64,000 nt of DNA from Polytrichum commune (Eukaryota; Streptophyta; Polytrichopsida; Polytrichales; Polytrichaceae). Location: positions 1,054,001-1,118,000 of the forward strand of contig OX485803.1 of NCBI GenBank assembly GCA_950295325.1. Direction: 5' to 3'. Positions 25,348-61,337 of this stretch are shown here, one piece after another. A model generated the notes under the pieces. It saw only the letters and a list, made by a program, of their open reading frames with translations, had not been told where the DNA came from and searched no databases. Within the stretch, counting starts at the first letter, position 1; each line of letters starts with the position of its first letter. Both the position numbers and the translations under genes were made by a program.

Positions 25348-26517
25348 ATGGTGGAGATGGAGGAGCAAGAGGCAACACAGGATCCGAAGCTTCTGCTAGC
25401 ACACAAGCTCTTTCTACTGCGCTCACCCGATGTGGAGGACATCGAGAAGTCGACCCTAAAGGATGAGGTGCTATTGCTCATCAAGGCGGACGACATGGCG
25501 GGGTTGTATCAGAGTTCCGCACAGGAGCTGGGATGGGAGATTGACCAGGGAGTGCTGGACGGGATGAACGGAAGAATCGCAGAGGAGCTGAAGAAGTTGG
25601 ACGAGAAGATCACTGATGCGGAGGAAAATCTCGGCGAGAGCGAGGTTCGGGAAGCACTTTTGGCTAAGGCGTTGTTTTACATTCGTGTTGGGGATAAGGA
25701 GAAATCATTGGAGCAGCTGAAAGTGACGGAGGCTAAGACCGTAGCTGTAGGGCAGAAGATGGACTTGGTATTTCATACCCTACGGTTAGGGTTTTTCTAT
25801 CTTGATTTCAATCTCATATCGTTGAATATTGATAAGGCGAAGTCGCTGTTCGATGAGGGAGGTGATTGGGAGAGGAAGAATCGGTTGAAGGTGTATGAGG
25901 GGCTGTACTGCATGGCAACGAGGAATTTCAAGCAAGCGGCAACTCTGTTTTTGGACTCTATCTCTACGTTTACGACTTATGAGCTTTTCTCGTATGATAC
26001 TTTCATTTTTTACTCTGTATTGACCAGCATCATCTCCCTGGACCGTGTTTCCTTGAAGCAGAAAGTGGTGGATGCACCGGAGATTTTGACTGTGATTGGA
26101 AAAATTCCTCATCTCTCCGACTTCATGAATGCCTTGTATGGGTGCCAGTACAAGACATTTTTTGTGGCTTTTGCTGGGTTGACCGACCAGATTAGGTTAG
26201 ACCGCTACTTGCATGCCCATTTCAGATATTACATGCGTGAGGTTCGATCGGTGGCGTATTCTCAGTTCCTTGAATCGTACAAGAGTGTGACTATGGATGC
26301 CATGGCGAAAGCATTCGGAGTGAGTGTCAACTTTTTGGACATCGAGCTCTCGCGCTTTATTGCTGCCGGAAGGCTTAACTGTAAGATTGACAAAGTGGCT
26401 GGAGTGTTGGAGACCAATCGACCTGATGCCAAGAATGCGCTCTACCAGGCTACTATCAAGCAGGGAGACTTCTTACTTAATCGCATACAGAAGCTGTCTA
26501 GAGTTATTGACTTGTAA
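25348..26517 (+). CDS. RPN7: 26S proteasome regulatory particle non-ATPase subunit RPN7
   Basis: Lid subunit of the 19S regulatory particle (PSMD6 in animals), which helps assemble the lid for ubiquitin-dependent degradation in cytosol and nucleus. One uninterrupted frame of 389 residues covers the whole family length. Recognisable stretches are ELKKLDEKITDAEENLGESE near residue 80, the RPN7 helical repeats including EGGDWERKNRLKVYEGLYCM, STFTTYE and LDRVSLKQKVVDAPEIL. The PCI domain ends AGRLNCKIDKVAGVLETNRP then NALYQATIKQGDFLLNRIQK and VIDL. The start MVEMEEQE is followed directly by conserved sequence and fits other plant RPN7s. No intron interrupts the CDS, unlike the other multi-kilobase genes here. 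A retrocopy origin is possible, but the frame is intact. The upstream 145 bp abuts a transposable-element end. Confidence 0.96.
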   Translation: MVEMEEQEATQDPKLLLAHKLFLLRSPDVEDIEKSTLKDEVLLLIKADDMAGLYQSSAQELGWEIDQGVLDGMNGRIAEELKKLDEKITDAEENLGESEVREALLAKALFYIRVGDKEKSLEQLKVTEAKTVAVGQKMDLVFHTLRLGFFYLDFNLISLNIDKAKSLFDEGGDWERKNRLKVYEGLYCMATRNFKQAATLFLDSISTFTTYELFSYDTFIFYSVLTSIISLDRVSLKQKVVDAPEILTVIGKIPHLSDFMNALYGCQYKTFFVAFAGLTDQIRLDRYLHAHFRYYMREVRSVAYSQFLESYKSVTMDAMAKAFGVSVNFLDIELSRFIAAGRLNCKIDKVAGVLETNRPDAKNALYQATIKQGDFLLNRIQKLSRVIDL

Positions 26518-27750
26518 GGTCATCTTGAGATGATGTTTGTAGGTTTCCAGGCAAGACATCATAACCACAGGGTCCGTCCTCTAGAGAAAAGCCTCCTTAC
26601 TTTGTACAGGCAGCAGCCGATTATAAACTCACGATGGTTGTCAGACCCTCAGTGATAAAGTTTCAATCATATCTTGTGAAATATAAAGTCGACACTTTCG
26701 AATTCTGAGTTTTGTCCTCTGCTCAAGCCCTGTACTGAAGAGCTTATTTGAGGACTTCTTGTGACCCACAAACTTGATTTGATTTCTTCTGCAGGAGACT
26801 TTGAATATATTCAGAGGTTACAGACACTTTGTGTTCTATTTCCGAAACATTGTCATGGGTTACCTTGCCAATGTGTGTAAAGAGTTATCTCAGTGTGTAT
26901 GCATATACTGAATCATCGTAAGTCTCTACTTCATGCTGCAAACTCAACGTTGTGTGACCAGTACATCATCATAAGAATGCTACTTCTGGTTGCGCAAGGT
27001 TACCGCACAAGTGTCGGAAGATCAGCACCCCAGTTCAAGAAAATAAACTTGAACATCAACACATACACAGGAATGGATTTGGCTATGTTTTGAACAGCAT
27101 AAGATAACCTTTAAGCCTAATTGTTACACCTTGGGACCTGACTGGGTGTCCCCTAATTTGCGTGGTGCTTACATGATGTGATCGGTCATGTATTACTTTT
27201 TAAGGTGAGGTTTTCTTAATGTTTTTAGGGCATGCATATCAGGTGTCGTATGCTTGGGTGAAGTGCCGATCCTTCTCTCTCAAGTCCATTGCAATCCAGA
27301 GTACTAAGTTCTCTAGGGTTAAACACAGAGCTGCCAGTGGTGCCAAAAGCTGAAGACATAACATTATTGTACCTACACTGCCAATTTGGAGCTATGAATC
27401 GAGCAGAAATGCACAAGTTAACAATTAGTGAGAGGGGATTCTAAAGGGATACTGGATAATATATGTAAATAATCAACTAGTGAATAAATTGCAGAAATAT
27501 GACATGGACTTACATCCCACACATGTCCCTTGTTGTCAAAATTGTTGTAACTGCTGCCACCGCCATCACACTGGGTGAACCAGCTGTTTCCAAACTAAAC
27601 ATGAGTGTGTGGGGGCAGTGGTGTCCCTATTTAAATCTCTACCCCATTTGCAATCTTAAAACGCCTTACATCCTCATCTGTTTGCTCTGGTGCCCTGTAC
27701 CATTCTCTCCAAACTGTAAAACCTCCGGCCCTTTAAGTTTGTGCTTCGAA
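26518..27750. other. RPN7 3' region and spacer
   Basis: Presumed 3' UTR followed by a spacer. No second exon is needed for RPN7. Short open frames (26893-27093 +, 27416-27225 -) have no support. Confidence 0.4.
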
Positions 27751-28876
27751 ATGGAAGGCCTACTCACAAATGTTAGTTCAAGAGTCAAGGTGTTGAGGAG
27801 GTTGCATGCGGGAGCTTCCACCAGCCTGCTATTGAAGCTTGTTGCTGCTGGTGAGTGATTTGAAAACCTTCTTGTTGTGGCCATATCTGGAATGTGTAGG
27901 CATGGTATTGTACTAGAGTCAGTAAAAGTGGTGTTCCATATGAAGGTCAGGCTTTAACATAACCTACGGATGTCTTCCTGATGCAACAGCATTGTGATGT
28001 CCTTTTGGTGTTCTAAAGTATTGGATCGATGTGCAGCCTATTTGTTACCAATGGTTGTGGCAGATTCTCTTCCTATAAGCACCTTTGCCATGGTAAGTAC
28101 TCGATGATCTGACTTTTTCCTTGAGGTGCTTCAAGTTGTTGTATACAATGTGAGAGATTCTTATATTGCTTCTTTTCCTGGTATAATGTGTCTAGGAATA
28201 CATAAATCACTCTGCATCCACAAGGTTCGTTGCATAACTATTTTGTGTGGGGCTTCAAAGCTCAATTCTATTTCATGTTGCCCCTTCTTTTAATGTCTGA
28301 TTCAAACCTCTCATATTCAAATTTTTGGTTGTGTATTCTCTCTCCCAACAATCAGCTGCTTCTAAAATTCTATTCTACAGGCATATCAGCCTGGAGCCAC
28401 TCGAATGGGCTTGAATCGGAGGTTTTTGCAGGCTGAACCTACACTACCACCTTATGACCCAATCAATGGTGAAGTGGAAGTTACTCCTTGCAATTAAATA
28501 CCAATACCTCAGCATCTTTTGCCAAAATTGTCGTTGAGTAGAATTGTATTGCCAAGTAACTTGGCATCTATGGACATTAAGTCAAGCACCAGCTAGCATT
28601 TCATGAATCAACCCATTGCTTTTGATTTAGATTCTGGTGTGCTGCAATTTCTTCCACTAAGCTTTTGTAAACTTGGTAATCAAATGACTTTTAGCTGATT
28701 TGGCACTGTGAGCAGAATGCACAGGAATTGGACCTGTCTGTGAAGGGGGCATATATGTGGAGTGTGCAGTAGGTGGAGTTGTGGGCTGCATGTGCTCCTT
28801 CATCCGAGCATGTGAGCCAGATATCTCTGGGTGCTTCCTGAAGGATGGGAAATCCTCCACCTACTGCGGCTTCTAA
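27751..28876 (+). CDS. Small secreted 8-cysteine protein, paralog A (novel)
   Basis: Reconstructed gene of four exons: 27751-27850, 28037-28092, 28381-28468 and 28716-28876. All junctions are GT-AG, frame closes and the total is 134 residues. Exons 1-2 give a basic start (MEGLLTNVSSRVKVLRRLHA) followed by a hydrophobic run (SLLLKLVAAAYLLPMVVA), consistent with a signal peptide or anchor. Exon 3 ends in a linker RRFLQAEPTLPPYDPIN. Exon 4 carries eight cysteines spaced C-x6-C-x7-C-x7-C-x-C-x5-C-x6-C-x10-C-GF-stop. Paralog B at 30282-31552 has the same spacing, the same phase-1 exon start and the same CGF end, which is the main proof that the model is right. If the third intron is retained, the frame stops at 28497 and yields a 90-residue form without the cysteine domain. 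I recognise no named family. The spacing is not the lipid-transfer 8CM, defensin or snakin/GASA pattern. Extracellular function is inferred; what it binds is unknown. Confidence 0.72.
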
Positions 28877-30281
28877 AACTCTTCAGGAAAAGGGAAAGGC
28901 AACAAGAAACAATTTCAGTGAGCCCATTTTCAGTGACCTGTGCCCCTTGCAGTGACCTTGAAAGAACATCCTAGCTATATGCCAGCTATAGCAAATTTCA
29001 CTTTGACCGAAGAGCAGCTATATGTTATTTCTATTTAGAACTATGTTCTTGACAAATGGCAAATACTCCTGTGAGTCCTCCTTGCTCACAGGAAATAGTT
29101 TCCTTTAACAACCTGTAGATACTTGTGTAAATATATGAAAACAAAACATGATTACAAATGCAAGTGATCAAAGACTTCTTGTGACAGCACAGACTGGCTT
29201 GATTGCAGTAATTGGGAAGCTTTCTTTACCTTCTTCTGGTGTATGGGTTGATTGAAACCAAATACCAAGGGGTTAGGACTTGATTGCGAGATTTGACTGC
29301 CCCTAAAATTCTTATATTTAGTGGACATGACCAAGTTCTCCTGCCAACTGGACTGCAAGGGTGGCACTGTACATCATGTTTTCCACAAGAAGGTTTGAGG
29401 TCTCAGACTCTAGTAATGTTTTAAATTGAGCAAGAATCTTTTTGACTAGTGAGAGTGCCTTGTATCCCAACGTTCATAGATGAACAATTTTGTTACATCT
29501 CAAAATGGTAGTACGCGAGATGATTGCCTCCACCAACCCCAAGGTATGATTCCACCCAAAGTACAGATGTGTGGCATTTGAGATATGATACAGTAGCAGC
29601 TCAACTATATAATTCCGTCCTACCCCACCGGATAGTAAAAGTACAAGATAGTGAGGAGTCTGATGGATCAGGTGGTACTGTGGATCTTACAAGTGGCAGG
29701 AATCATCTCATAATCTAAATAAAGTGTAAATCTTCACAATCAAAGTAGGACATGCTGGATCGAATGCATTGCATGCAAATATGGCTGCAATGCCAACGCC
29801 ATTATGAAGCATTGACTTTGCTTCCACTTCGATTGCAATCAAGAATTCCTTCAAAACATACTTTCAAAAACTCAGAGTAGATACGGTTATCACTCACAAT
29901 GGCTAAGTATGTGCAAGTAAATCAAGCAGCTAATCAATTTACAAGGTGAGAAGTAAAATAGTAGTAGATGCAATCTGGTAGTTATATGTACAATCAAGTG
30001 TGAAGTACCACACCAGTTTTTAGGTACAATCTCTGGTGCGATCCTCAGCAGTTACGAGTTCCTTGAGCTCTGCACCTTCCCCTCCAAATTTTTAATCAAG
30101 TGGAGAAGTACGTGTGGCAGCCATGCGTACACTGTGAACTCACTATGAAACTTGAATCTGCAACCTGTCTCACCACCATGCAATCCCCCCCAGGGGTCAG
30201 TAATATTTCAGGGAAGCTTTTTCCTTTTCTTTACTGATCTGTAGTTCTGCCCATTGAGGAGTCTCCGGACTCTTGAGGACC
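28877..30281. other. Spacer between the 8-Cys paralogs
   Basis: No supported coding exon. Open frames at 29152-29367 (-) and 29524-29718 (+) show no family features. No third copy of the cysteine domain was found here. Confidence 0.4.
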
Positions 30282-31552
30282 ATGAATATGGCTACTAGAG
30301 GTTATACTGTGAAATGGATGCTTGCAGTCGTGGCGATTTGGTTCCTGGTTTTTACTCGTATGTTTTTCCAAGTAAACCCATTTTTGTGAAATGGTATGAA
30401 AATTTGTCCTCACAGAATTTACATTCATTAGAGTGGAATAGAATTAATCAACTGTGGGTTTGTTGGACAGAGGAAGCAGTGGTGAGCTCCAGATTGCTTG
30501 AAGAGGAGTCACCCATTGCTACTTCAGAGTACACAGGTCGCTCGCTGTTGCAGAGTAAGTGCTCCAGTAGCCCTTGACCTATATTTTCTGATGAGTTTGC
30601 TTCAGTCTTCGTATGAATGCAGTTTGCTGTTATTCAAAATCCTAGATGACACCTGCATGGAGCTTTGTCTAGGTCCCGGGGTGGCAACTCTCCCCTTTGG
30701 AACAACTGGTGTGTCAAGAACTGAGTAGGAGCAGTGTTTCTAAAGCAGGGGTCACCATGATCCAGACCCCTATTTGTTTAATTTTATTTCTTACTTTCAA
30801 GAGAATTTCATAAAATTTCATGGATTTTAGAGCCAAGTTAAAAATGCTTATGTTACGAAAGCAACTTCAAAACAGTGCTTCTTACAAAAATGTTTTAGCA
30901 GCTCCTAGTCAAGTTTTGTAGACGCCAGTGCCTGCAGGTGCTACATATTGTTGCCACCCTGACCTTGTCTGTAATCATGTGTTTGCTATCACTCAAATGC
31001 AATTTGCTGTCCCTTGAGTATTTAGATTGCAGCTGCATGGAGACTTTCTCTTCACTTCTGTGTTTGCTTTCACTCGGATGAATTTTTATGAGGAATGCAA
31101 CTTCCATTTTCACTTGGATGCAATCTTCTGCAACTTGGTATCTTGGATTGTAGCCGCATGGAGCCTTTCTCTTTGATCTTGTGTTTGCTATCACTTGGAT
31201 GCAAATTGCTATCGATTGGATGCAACTTCATGTCACTTGGAACCTTAGATTGCAGCTGCATGGAGACTTTCTTTTCAATCATGTGGTTGCTATCACTTGG
31301 ATGCAATTTGCTGTCGCTTTGAATCTCAAATTACAGCTGCATGGAGCCCTTGTGTTGAATGATGTGTTTGATGTGGGACTGGCAGCGTGCTGGCCAGGAA
31401 TGCGTGTGAACTGCCCCCCGGACATGCAGGTGGAATGCGAGGTTGGAGGTGTGGGAGGGTGTGACTGCCTGGCTATGGCGTCATGCGTGCCACATGTCTC
31501 TGGCTGCTTCGTGGTTGTTGATGGCATGGCCATCCGGTCCTGTGGCTTTTGA
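30282..31552 (+). CDS. Small secreted 8-cysteine protein, paralog B (novel)
   Basis: Three exons: 30282-30357, 30471-30536 and 31386-31552. Donors are GTATGT and GTCGCT, acceptors are ACAG and GCAG, both junctions are phase 1 and the total is 102 residues. The N-terminus is a classical signal peptide (MNMATRGYTVKWMLAVVAIW then FLVFT), preceded in frame by a TGA, which fixes the start region. A linker SSRLLEEESPIATSEYT parallels RRFLQAEPTLPPYDPIN of paralog A. The last exon holds eight cysteines spaced C-x7-C-x7-C-x7-C-x-C-x5-C-x6-C-x11-C-GF-stop, sharing with A the signature VEC-x-VGGV-x-GC-x-C and SGCF. Intron 2 (849 bp) is filled by a tandem repeat. Function is unknown. The expected product is a small disulfide-rich secreted protein. 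Confidence 0.72.
30960..31365. repeat. Degenerate minisatellite inside intron 2 of paralog B
   Basis: Four to five imperfect units of about 90-120 bp. Each contains GTGTTTGCTATCACTTGGAT, GCAATTTGCTGTC, ATTGCAGCTGCATGGAG and CTTTCTCTTCA in order. Minus-strand open frames (31306-30895) merely reflect the repeat (for example HPSDSKH repeated) and are not taken as genes. Confidence 0.75.
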
Positions 31553-46742: not shown

Positions 46743-48123
46743 CTAATACATCATCTGCACATTGGAGTTGTAAAGAGCCCCAGGCTGGAAGTACTCCGGG
46801 ATGGCTCTCCTTGCAACAGCCGTGTGGCCATTCAACTTGGCAGTGATTTGGATGTCATAGGGCCCCTTGAATGGCTGCCCGGAGTAACAGATCAACATCC
46901 AACTTGCTCCCCAGTTGTGTTGCATCGGCTGCCAGTAATTGCTACCGGCCATTCGAACAGACACACTTGCCAAATCCCCAGGTCCTCCTTGGTACTTGAC
47001 GGTGATGGAGAGCCAGTAAGCGGACGATCCCGGGTCCACCTTGAAGGCGATGTTCTGCCTGGGGTACTGACATGGCACCCTCTTGTACAGGATGTTGTAC
47101 AATCCAATGTTCCGAAGCTCCCCATCCCTCCCGGGGAGAGCCATGTTGGTGATGGCGGCCCCACTCAGGTCGAAGGCAGGCTGGTTGGTGCTGCAGTAGG
47201 TTCCCCCTGGGCACTGATCTGTGATCACAATTCGGGTGGGCTGGGCTTTGCAGCTTGGGTAAGTGCACTTCACATCGTAGCATTGGCCGCATCCCTTACC
47301 GCCTTGGAAGATAGGAGTGTTAGCAGCAGCCACTTTGGCTGTGTACGGTGTGCCTGTGAGCTCAGTGTAACCACATGCTCCACCTGAACATCATCAAAAC
47401 AACACCGAAATTAGATCTGGACCAAGAGGTTCTGGGCCCTGAAGATCTAAGATCACCTCTCTTTAGAATCAAAGTATGTTTGTAGATGGTGCCAGATAAA
47501 ATATAATCGAAGTGCTTTTATTATTAAGCGAGACATCGGGATAAGGTGTGCGGGTGTTAATTGGTTACTTTTCTCAATCGGACACCTATATTTGATGTAT
47601 GTGTGATTCGGTCACGATCAAAGAACAAAACACCATAAATACACATGTTTAAAACAGATTGAACTACGTCTTTGTATTTTCTTTTAAGTACTCCACACTC
47701 AATTTGAGTAAACACAATTGAGAGGACCTACTATTCAGGTGATAAATCAACAAACATGCACTGCCAACATCCAGAACTGATTTCTAATCTGGATTTTGCT
47801 GATGTCTCATGGAGAACATGCAAAACGAACTGATTAATACCCACAGAAAAGTAGTACACCTACCACAACTCTACACATTGGGCTAGAGGTGATGAACTCT
47901 AGGCCCTTGTGATGGGGCACACAGTGAGACGATGGCAAACACAGTGTAAAGTGAATTGGAGGTTACCGCTTGAGCCTTCTCCGTAAGGGTCACCATACCA
48001 GGTGGCATGTCCTGCAATCCACCCGGCATTGTAGCCATACATAACTAGAAAGTTTCTGGCCAGGGCACCAGGTAGACCCGCAAGGCCCAGGAGTAGCAAC
48101 ACCATCAAGAGTGCCATCGCCAT
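46743..48123 (-). CDS. Beta-expansin, copy 1 (two exons)
   Basis: Secreted cell-wall loosening protein of the beta-expansin type. Exons in transcript order are 48123-47967 and 47383-46743, GT-AG, one phase-1 intron, giving 265 residues. The signal peptide MAMALLMVLLLLGLAGLPGALA precedes the double-psi beta-barrel domain (HATWYGDPYGEGSSGGACGY, KGCGQCYDVKC, VITDQCPGGTYC). The CBM63-like C-terminal domain has aromatic residues in YWLSITVKY, NYWQPMQHNW and GASWM. TWYGDP and the spacing KGCGQCY place it with EXPB rather than EXPA. The conserved HFD motif reads AFDLSG here: the Asp is kept and the His is replaced. An exon tract (about 47010-47205) is nearly identical to copy 2. It forms a same-strand cluster with the genes at 59.4 and 63.4 kb. 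Confidence 0.93.
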
Positions 48124-59420: not shown

Positions 59421-61337
59421 TTAATACCGCAATTGCACATTGGAATTGTATTGTGCACCCGGCTGGAAGTACTGGGGAATGGCTCGCCTGGCAACCACCG
59501 TGTGGCCATTTAACCTGGCAGTGACCCTGATGTCATACGGCCCCTTGAATGGCTTCCCGGAGTAGCTGATGAGCATCCAATTGGCCCCCCAGTTGTGTTG
59601 CATCGGCTGCCAGTATCTGTTACCGGCCATTCGAACAGACACACTTCCCACATCCCCAGGTCCTCCTTGGTACTTGACAGTGATGGAGAGCCAGTAAGCG
59701 GACGACCCCGGGTCCACCTTGAAGGCGATGTTCTGCCTGGGGTACTGACATGGCACCCTCTTGTACAGGATGTTGTACAATCCAATGTTCCGAAGCTCCC
59801 CATCCCTCCCGGGGAGAGCCATGCTGGTGATGGCGGCCCCACTCAGGTCGAAGGCAGGCTGGTTGGAGCTGCAGAAAGTTCCCCCGGGGCAGAAATCTGT
59901 AATCACCACTCGGGTGGGTTGCCATCTGCAGCTGGGGTATGTGCACTTCACCTGCACGTGAGTCAGATGTTAGAGCTTAGAGCATGACCACACATTGGAC
60001 ACCAAACCCTAACACAAAGGTTTGCTGAAATAGTCCCTCTATATGTCCCACACATTCAATCCATATGAGCGCTGTAAATTGTGAGTCCCATGATCAACAC
60101 TAGTATCTTACAGTACATAAGGTGTTACGTAAGTATAGTTGAAGCTAAAGTCCTAGTTGGTGTTATGTTGTGAGATATGAGTGTTGATGTCCTTTAACGA
60201 GAGGAGTTGAAATTCACTCCTCTAAAGTTACATATTTGAAAGAGCGGAAGGCGTTAGAAGGGAGAGAGTACCTCTAAATTGGTGATTAACGAAAACGTGT
60301 GAAAGCCTATTTTGTTAAAAGTTCACCTTTTTAATTGGTGGTATGGGTTCAGAGGCGTCCGTGTTGAGATTGTGTGGTTATGCTCGTAGCAACTAGAAAC
60401 CAAAGGAAAATCTGGGCCTGTCTTGCTTCGGGGTCACTGAGGAGTTTCTGTGTGAGTAAAGTATATCCTTATTCTTGTCATTGGAAAATCGCCCATTGAT
60501 TTCAAAACAATGAAAAACAAATTGGGAATAAGTGTTTGTAGGGGGATCCCATCCCTCTCCGCCCACTTTTTCATTGGACCTCCGCAGTTCGATATTCACT
60601 GCTCACCCTCTACCCTACCTGATTAGTTGTCAGTGAAAATAATCCAAACAATGGGGGTTACCTCTTTTAAGATCTCTGCAAGAATGTTAGAGTGCGACAT
60701 GATAGAGGTTCAGCCTTTTTAATCTCTACTCACTCTACTCCGTAGGGTTCGCATGGTAGAAGTGACCTACCCCAAGAAACTAAGGACAGAGAGATGGGTT
60801 CCTCTGCAGCACTCTACCCAAGCGAATTACATTTATATTTGCATTCACAGAGAGTTGGTAGAAGTGGGAGCTAGAACTTACTGCATAGCATTGGCCGCAT
60901 CCCTTTCCGTTCTGGAAGATGGCCCTACTCCCAGCTGCAATTCTGGGACCATAGGGAGTACCTGTGAGCTCCTTGTACCCACATGCTCCACCTGCACAAT
61001 TACATCAATTCGATGTGTTCACATGATGCATCCCACCACTTGAACATTCAGGATTCATTTTGCACCAATTTGAGCCTGGAATTGAAACTTTGCAGAAATC
61101 TTGCTGGGGTGATACAACATGAGATACAACATTTGCCTCATCAAGGAATTGCAAGAAGATTTGAATGATTAGATTACCGCTTGAGCCTTCGCCGTGGGGG
61201 TCGCCATACCAAGTTGCATGCCCAGCAATCCAGCCAGCATTGTAACCCATAGCGGCCAAGCTACCAACGGCCAGGGCACCAGGTAGCCCCGCAAAGAGAA
61301 GAACTAGCAACACTGTGACCACCACGTATCCCACCAT
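59421..61337 (-). CDS. Beta-expansin, copy 2 (three exons)
   Basis: Exons in transcript order are 61337-61178, 60991-60882 and 59951-59421, all GT-AG and frame-closed, giving 266 residues. The signal peptide is MVGYVVVTVLLVLLFAGLPG with ALA at the likely cleavage site. Domain 1 holds HATWYGDPHGEGSSGGACGY, KGCGQCYAVKC and VITDFCPGGTFC. Domain 2 holds YWLSITVKYQGG and RYWQPMQHNWGANWM. As in copy 1, HFD is replaced by AFD. A 930-bp intron after GQCYA is absent from copy 1, whereas the first, phase-1 intron is shared. The 59680-59870 stretch matches copy 1 at about 98% by eye, although the second exon is much more diverged. Confidence 0.93.

Follow-up and report, generated by a model that had tools for sequence, protein, structure and literature searches.

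A small family of predicted secreted eight-cysteine prepropeptides in Polytrichum commune

Introduction

Secreted cysteine-rich peptides are a principal means by which plant cells signal to one another and defend the apoplast. Families of them often emerge from the sequencing of new plant lineages, but few are known to have been catalogued outside flowering plants. Here, we analyze two neighboring genes, A and B, in a 64,000-nucleotide stretch of the Polytrichum commune genome, which we call the window (positions 1,054,001 to 1,118,000 of contig OX485803.1 in the 407.8-Mb, 64-contig assembly GCA_950295325.1; G000:C1:1054001-1118000 in our numbering). A preliminary description made from the sequence of the window had proposed that A and B are paralogs encoding an apparently undescribed family of secreted proteins with eight cysteines. 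The gene models presented below indicate that they belong to a real small family, which is of a known broad kind, the plant secreted cysteine-rich prepropeptides, has a cysteine framework of its own, and has no match in the libraries searched.

Several described families resemble these proteins in outline. Non-specific lipid-transfer proteins (nsLTPs) are secreted plant proteins that also have eight cysteines, and their eight-cysteine motif (8CM) has the order C..C..CC..CxC..C..C, with an adjacent CC pair and a C5-x-C6 element. Plant defensins, snakins/GASA, EPF/EPFL, and TIL-type inhibitors are small, secreted, and disulfide-rich, as the present proteins are predicted to be, but none of them is known to have the cysteine order found here. 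A C-x-C element is also part of the EGF cysteine order. The CFEM domain, described as fungal-specific, has about 60 residues, eight cysteines, and a C4-x-C5 element, in the pattern PxC[AG]x2Cx8-12C...CxCx9-14Cx3-4Cx15-16 (PMC8867779, in the part available).

RALFs, which occur in land plants, are small cysteine-rich prepropeptides that are secreted, and most of them carry an RRxL site for subtilase cleavage ahead of the mature part. The accessible portion of one survey assigns them four cysteines and, in clades I-III, a YISY motif, and reports none in the five chlorophytes surveyed (PMC5258720). The plant site-1 protease S1P/SBT6.1 cleaves RxxL or RxLx sequences, such as INRRIL-ATRRY in proRALF23, and processing of this type is documented for RALF23, CLEL6, and PROSCOOP12 (PMC13082318, in the part available).

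On balance, we favor the view that A and B are members of a small family of secreted prepropeptides, comprising at least five intact genes and two probable remains, that release disulfide-rich peptides into the apoplast, where these would act in defence or signalling.

Results

Gene models of A and B

After re-examining this part of the window and reconstructing A and B, we searched the genome to which it belongs for further copies. Gene A, on the plus strand, is best read as four exons. Exon 1 (27751..27850) carries the start and the first part of a hydrophobic leader and ends in phase 1 at the donor GTGAGT; exon 2 (28037..28092) would supply the remainder of the leader (LLKLVAA|AYLLPMVVADSLPISTFAM) and ends in phase 0; exon 3 (28381..28468) encodes the pro-region and ends in phase 1; and exon 4 (28716..28876) encodes the eight-cysteine domain, ECTGIGPVC...STYCGF-stop. 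We prefer the reading of exon 2 from 28037 because a second in-frame acceptor at 28064 gives a weaker hydrophobic core (KD12 of 1.55 versus 2.37). The start codon of A is uncertain because the open frame reaches further upstream, as far as an ATG at 27499. Gene B, on the same strand, is modelled with three exons, which encode a signal-peptide-like leader, MNMATRGYTVKWMLAVVAIWFLVF (30282..30357, ending in phase 1), a pro-region, VVSSRLLEE...GRSLLQ (30471..30554, ending in phase 1), and the eight-cysteine domain, TCWPGMRVNC...RSCGF-stop (31386..31552). The predicted products have 134 and 108 amino acids, respectively, and the last exons encode ECTGIGPVCEGGIYVECAVGGVVGCMCSFIRACEPDISGCFLKDGKSSTYCGF in A and TCWPGMRVNCPPDMQVECEVGGVGGCDCLAMASCVPHVSGCFVVVDGMAIRSCGF in B, which share 24 residues over 53 aligned positions. 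A 102-nt repeat occurs in the last intron of B in three imperfect copies, of which two are arranged head to tail (window 30993-31317).

These models agree closely with the preliminary description, which had assigned to both genes a hydrophobic leader, a linker, and a final eight-cysteine exon that begins in phase 1 and has the first cysteine at its second codon. All of these parts are present, although the leader of A is the weakest in the family; the cysteine spacings and the terminal CGF-stop came out identical when recomputed; and every junction in both splice models has GT/AG borders and closes the frame. The proposed R-[LF]-L-[EQ] start of the linker is better written R-x-[FL]-L. Its sequence is RRFL in A (28417..28428, plus strand), a site-1-protease-type RxxL motif, and RSLL in B (30539..30550, plus strand), an RxxL-type motif two residues ahead of the first cysteine; both positions were read from the sequence.

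The cysteine framework in five intact genes

Searches of the 408-Mb genome with part of B, the whole B domain, A, D, and E as queries identified three more intact genes. Only the best candidates were scored, so the family has at least five intact members. The cysteine-exon match of C lies on the same contig as A and B (C1:898174-898332), ~183 kb upstream of A; that of D is on contig C6 (24977919-24978074), and that of E (locus L016) is on the minus strand of contig C3 (2650235-2650393). Recomputed spacings between successive cysteines were 6-7-7-1-5-6-10 in A, C, and E, 7-7-7-1-5-6-11 in B, and 5-7-7-1-4-7-10 in D, and all five members fit the consensus C-x5/7-C-x7-C-x7-C-x-C-x4/5-C-x6/7-C-x10/11-C-G-F-stop, with eight cysteines, a C4-x-C5 element, and the terminal CGF-stop. 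In all five gene models, the cysteine domain has a last exon of its own, which begins in phase 1; the second codon of this exon is the first cysteine in A, B, C, and E, and its fifth codon is the first cysteine in D. The reconstructed models of A, C, D, and E have four exons with intron phases 1-0-1, so that the phase-0 end of exon 2 in A recurs in C, D, and E. B has one intron fewer (phases 1 and 1), and we infer from position that its exon 2 corresponds to both the second and the third exon of the other members.

Could these be intronic open frames that happen to contain eight cysteines? The last-exon frame of B does continue upstream into the intron, remaining open from the 102-nt repeat into the cysteine exon, which could mislead gene callers. 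Several results nevertheless make chance a very improbable origin. First, a broadened cysteine pattern, derived from A and B themselves, matched the window at two places, A and B, and matched none of 40 simulated 64-kb sequences (first-order Markov); a shorter core pattern gave two matches where 0.2 were expected per window. Second, when the cysteines were fixed and the other residues of B were shuffled, none of 2000 shuffles reached the A-B alignment score of 114, the shuffled maximum being 84. Third, C, D, and E, three intact genes elsewhere in the genome that played no part in drawing the pattern, give independent support. Finally, intact copies number five, and their intron phases match. 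The earlier argument that conserved spacing reflects selection thus stands on five intact paralogs with shared intron phases rather than on two genes.

Relationships, remains, and rejected candidates

The members recovered one another unevenly. With E as the query, the E values were 5e-10 for C and 2e-4 for A; with A, they were 1.5e-5 for D, 3.5e-5 for B, and 9e-5 for E; with B, 5e-5 for A and 7e-4 for C; and with D, about 6e-5 for both C and A. Two further loci appear to be remains of family members. Locus L027 (C1:922459-922572), about 24 kb from C, is a degenerate C-like copy with internal stops in which, counted by eye, about four of the eight cysteine positions are gone, and C3:35478512 is a probable family fragment (E 0.004). 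The stop-bearing relative near C and the C3 fragment indicate that copies have undergone birth-and-death turnover.

Other candidates were rejected. L015 and L018 contain stops and lack the full cysteine framework. L004-L008, considered as a cysteine-poor branch, share one conceptual peptide (xISGxSSCRCIG...) and represent a dispersed repeat, which probably resembles the C-x-C-x5-C core by chance. This repeat occurs on contigs C1, C3, C4, and C7 with a peptide like xISGxSSCRCIGxxxCxxYxRGSF, L006 being on the plus strand and the other four copies on the minus strand. In bacterial and archaeal genomes, 77 stretches fit the pattern, and none of them was a relative.

Conservation

In the five-member alignment, the invariant positions are seven cysteine columns, the glycine before C4, a proline, a serine, and the final GF. 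Within the seven invariant cysteine columns, the codon (TGC or TGT) differed in 40/70 pairwise cells and the residue in 0/70. Differences at codon positions 1, 2, and 3 numbered 244, 230, and 345 of 526 cells, and identity outside the cysteines was 7-17 of 45 positions between members. Synonymous sites are thus close to saturation, whereas the framework has been conserved.

Leader, RxxL motif, and charge

Hydrophobic leaders were found in all five members (best KD12 of 2.4-3.4), as was an R-x-[FL]-L sequence between leader and cysteine domain, which takes the RRxL form in A and C (RRFL) and in D and E (RRLL) and is RSLL in B. The arginine and the final leucine of this motif were invariant columns in an unsupervised full-length alignment. 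In shuffled pro-regions, the motif turned up in 1-4% of cases per member, rates that cannot be multiplied, given the kinship of the members and the post hoc choice of the motif. The cysteine domains of all five proteins have a net charge of -2 or -3, a pI of 4.4-5.4, and a mass of 5.3-6 kDa. Their net negative charge makes a membrane-lytic antimicrobial role less likely than protein binding.

Comparison with described families

Pfam-A scans covered the first models of A and B, full-length A-D, and the cysteine domains of A-E; neither the full-length proteins nor the domains matched any family above its curated cut-off. NCBIfam, a library built for prokaryotic annotation, gave no families for the five members. 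Among PDB sequences, B alone retrieved only copper-resistance protein C (E 0.65 and 0.89), which is no credible match, and four- and five-member profiles matched no PDB chain at E values up to 10. Six literal spellings of the cysteine spacing were absent from open-access PMC papers, and the accessible part of PMC9901580 names no such family. Topic searches turned up no such family either, which is weak evidence, as subscription papers mostly, and supplements, lay outside their reach. The claim that the family is apparently undescribed therefore holds for the libraries searched and extends no further.

The family might instead be a divergent branch of a named cysteine-rich family or fold (RALF-, LTP-, EGF-, CFEM-, or defensin-like, or a protease inhibitor) that lies beyond profile recognition. 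Small disulfide-rich domains diverge quickly, and the best sub-threshold Pfam match was RALF (PF05498), for which D scored 13.7 bits (E 0.14), below the cut-off of 22. For the cysteine domains, RALF was listed for one of the five members, again D (E 0.11), and full-length A, B, and C had no match to PF05498. The remaining sub-threshold names were single-member matches to unrelated families, Pkip-1 for C (E 0.16) and Sublancin for A (E 0.8). RALF membership was rejected; in addition to the sub-threshold score, the proteins have eight cysteines rather than four, and no YISY was seen by eye in the translations. The genuine RALFs that were found, moreover, occupy five other loci in this genome, each with four cysteines in the mature part and one open frame from leader to last cysteine, as opposed to the three or four exons of A-E. 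Four of these RALF loci have RRML before the mature part, and the fifth, L032, has GRML, which does not fit RxxL. L031, L033, and L034 cluster within 19 kb (C5:3065258-3083863); L030 and L032 are on C1.

The other named families fit no better. The 8CM cysteine order was found in none of the five members, in keeping with the preliminary description. Defensins, snakins/GASA, EPF/EPFL, and TIL-type inhibitors were not listed by Pfam at E values up to 10, although HMMER filters drop most matches above ~0.1. The C-x-C element is shared with EGF as well as with CFEM, and by eye the spacings of the fungal domain (C1-x3-C2, C5-x9-14-C6, and C7-x15-16, as given in the available part of PMC8867779) differ from the 5-7, 4-5, and 10-11 residues at these places in A-E, which had no Pfam match to it. 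Given the missing PDB matches of the family profiles as well, we regard descent from a named family as unlikely.

Other genes in the window

The window also contains genes or exons for PP2C, RPN7, ARF, and two expansins. The RPN7 gene (26S proteasome; 25348-26517, plus strand) is intronless and complete, encodes 389 amino acids, and is possibly a retrocopy; its closest PDB chain is 8amz_R, which we take to be from a plant proteasome. The expansin genes (46743-47333 and 59421-59957, both on the minus strand) are similar, lie about 12 kb apart, and match Expansin_C and DPBB_1; presumably, both are beta-expansin-like.

Discussion

We infer that A-E are expressed and that their products would mature along the following route. 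The leader would direct the precursor into the secretory pathway, and a site-1-protease-type subtilase could cleave at the R-x-[FL]-L of the pro-region. The peptide set free, of about 6-9 kDa if cut at this motif, would fold around four disulfides and might bind a protein partner in the apoplast, which could be an enzyme of a pathogen or of the plant itself, or a receptor. Such a mode of action would be that of known cysteine-rich peptides of defence or signalling.

A number of observations weigh against this proposal or narrow it. The leader of A is long and has a lysine within its hydrophobic stretch. The distance from the motif to the first cysteine varies widely (14 residues in A, 2 in B, 27 in C, 8 in D, and 12 in E), so cleavage at a single fixed distance is not implied, and R-x-[FL]-L, which was spotted after the fact, may be merely a common post-signal sequence. 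The whole stretch after the motif has a mass of 5.8-8.9 kDa and a net charge of -5 in A, -3 in B, 0 in C, -2 in D, and -1 in E; because C would be neutral and E only slightly acidic if cut there, acidity is firm for the cysteine domain only. In D, the third intron requires a GC donor, and three of the cysteine spacings (C1-C2, C5-C6, and C6-C7) each deviate by one. Some pairs of members match poorly (E values of 0.7 for D-B, 0.5 for D-E, and 0.06 for A-C; query E gave 0.7 for D and did not list B, and query B gave 1.5 for D and did not list E), and the family is therefore linked through the intermediates A and C. Finally, dS was incalculable in seven of ten pairs and exceeded 1.1 in the other three, so dN/dS is saturated and we do not use it as proof.

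If the released peptides bind proteins, would they serve signalling or defence? A narrower version of our proposal holds that they are signalling peptides with a dedicated receptor rather than defence peptides. An RxxL site and few copies recall processed peptide hormones such as RALF23, CLEL6, and PROSCOOP12 (PMC13082318, in the part available), and the CGF terminus and GC-x-C core are invariant. The low identity outside the cysteines, however, is below expectation for ligands of one receptor, and degenerate copies exist. We consider the dedicated-receptor version possible but doubtful. The processing site and small copy number fit signalling, whereas rapid divergence outside the cysteines, the presence of dead copies, and the age of the tandem pair speak somewhat more for defence than for a fixed hormone. 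We place defence-type protein binding slightly ahead.

Besides a cysteine framework that matched nothing in the libraries searched, the family offers five mutually corroborating gene models, a putative processing site that can be put to the test, and clear knockout candidates, and its common exon layout should make further members easy to find. We suggest, tentatively, that the five genes may represent a lineage-restricted family of extracellular peptides, released by a site-1 protease and built on an undescribed disulfide framework and perhaps an undescribed fold, which early-diverging land plants would use as a system for defence or signalling.

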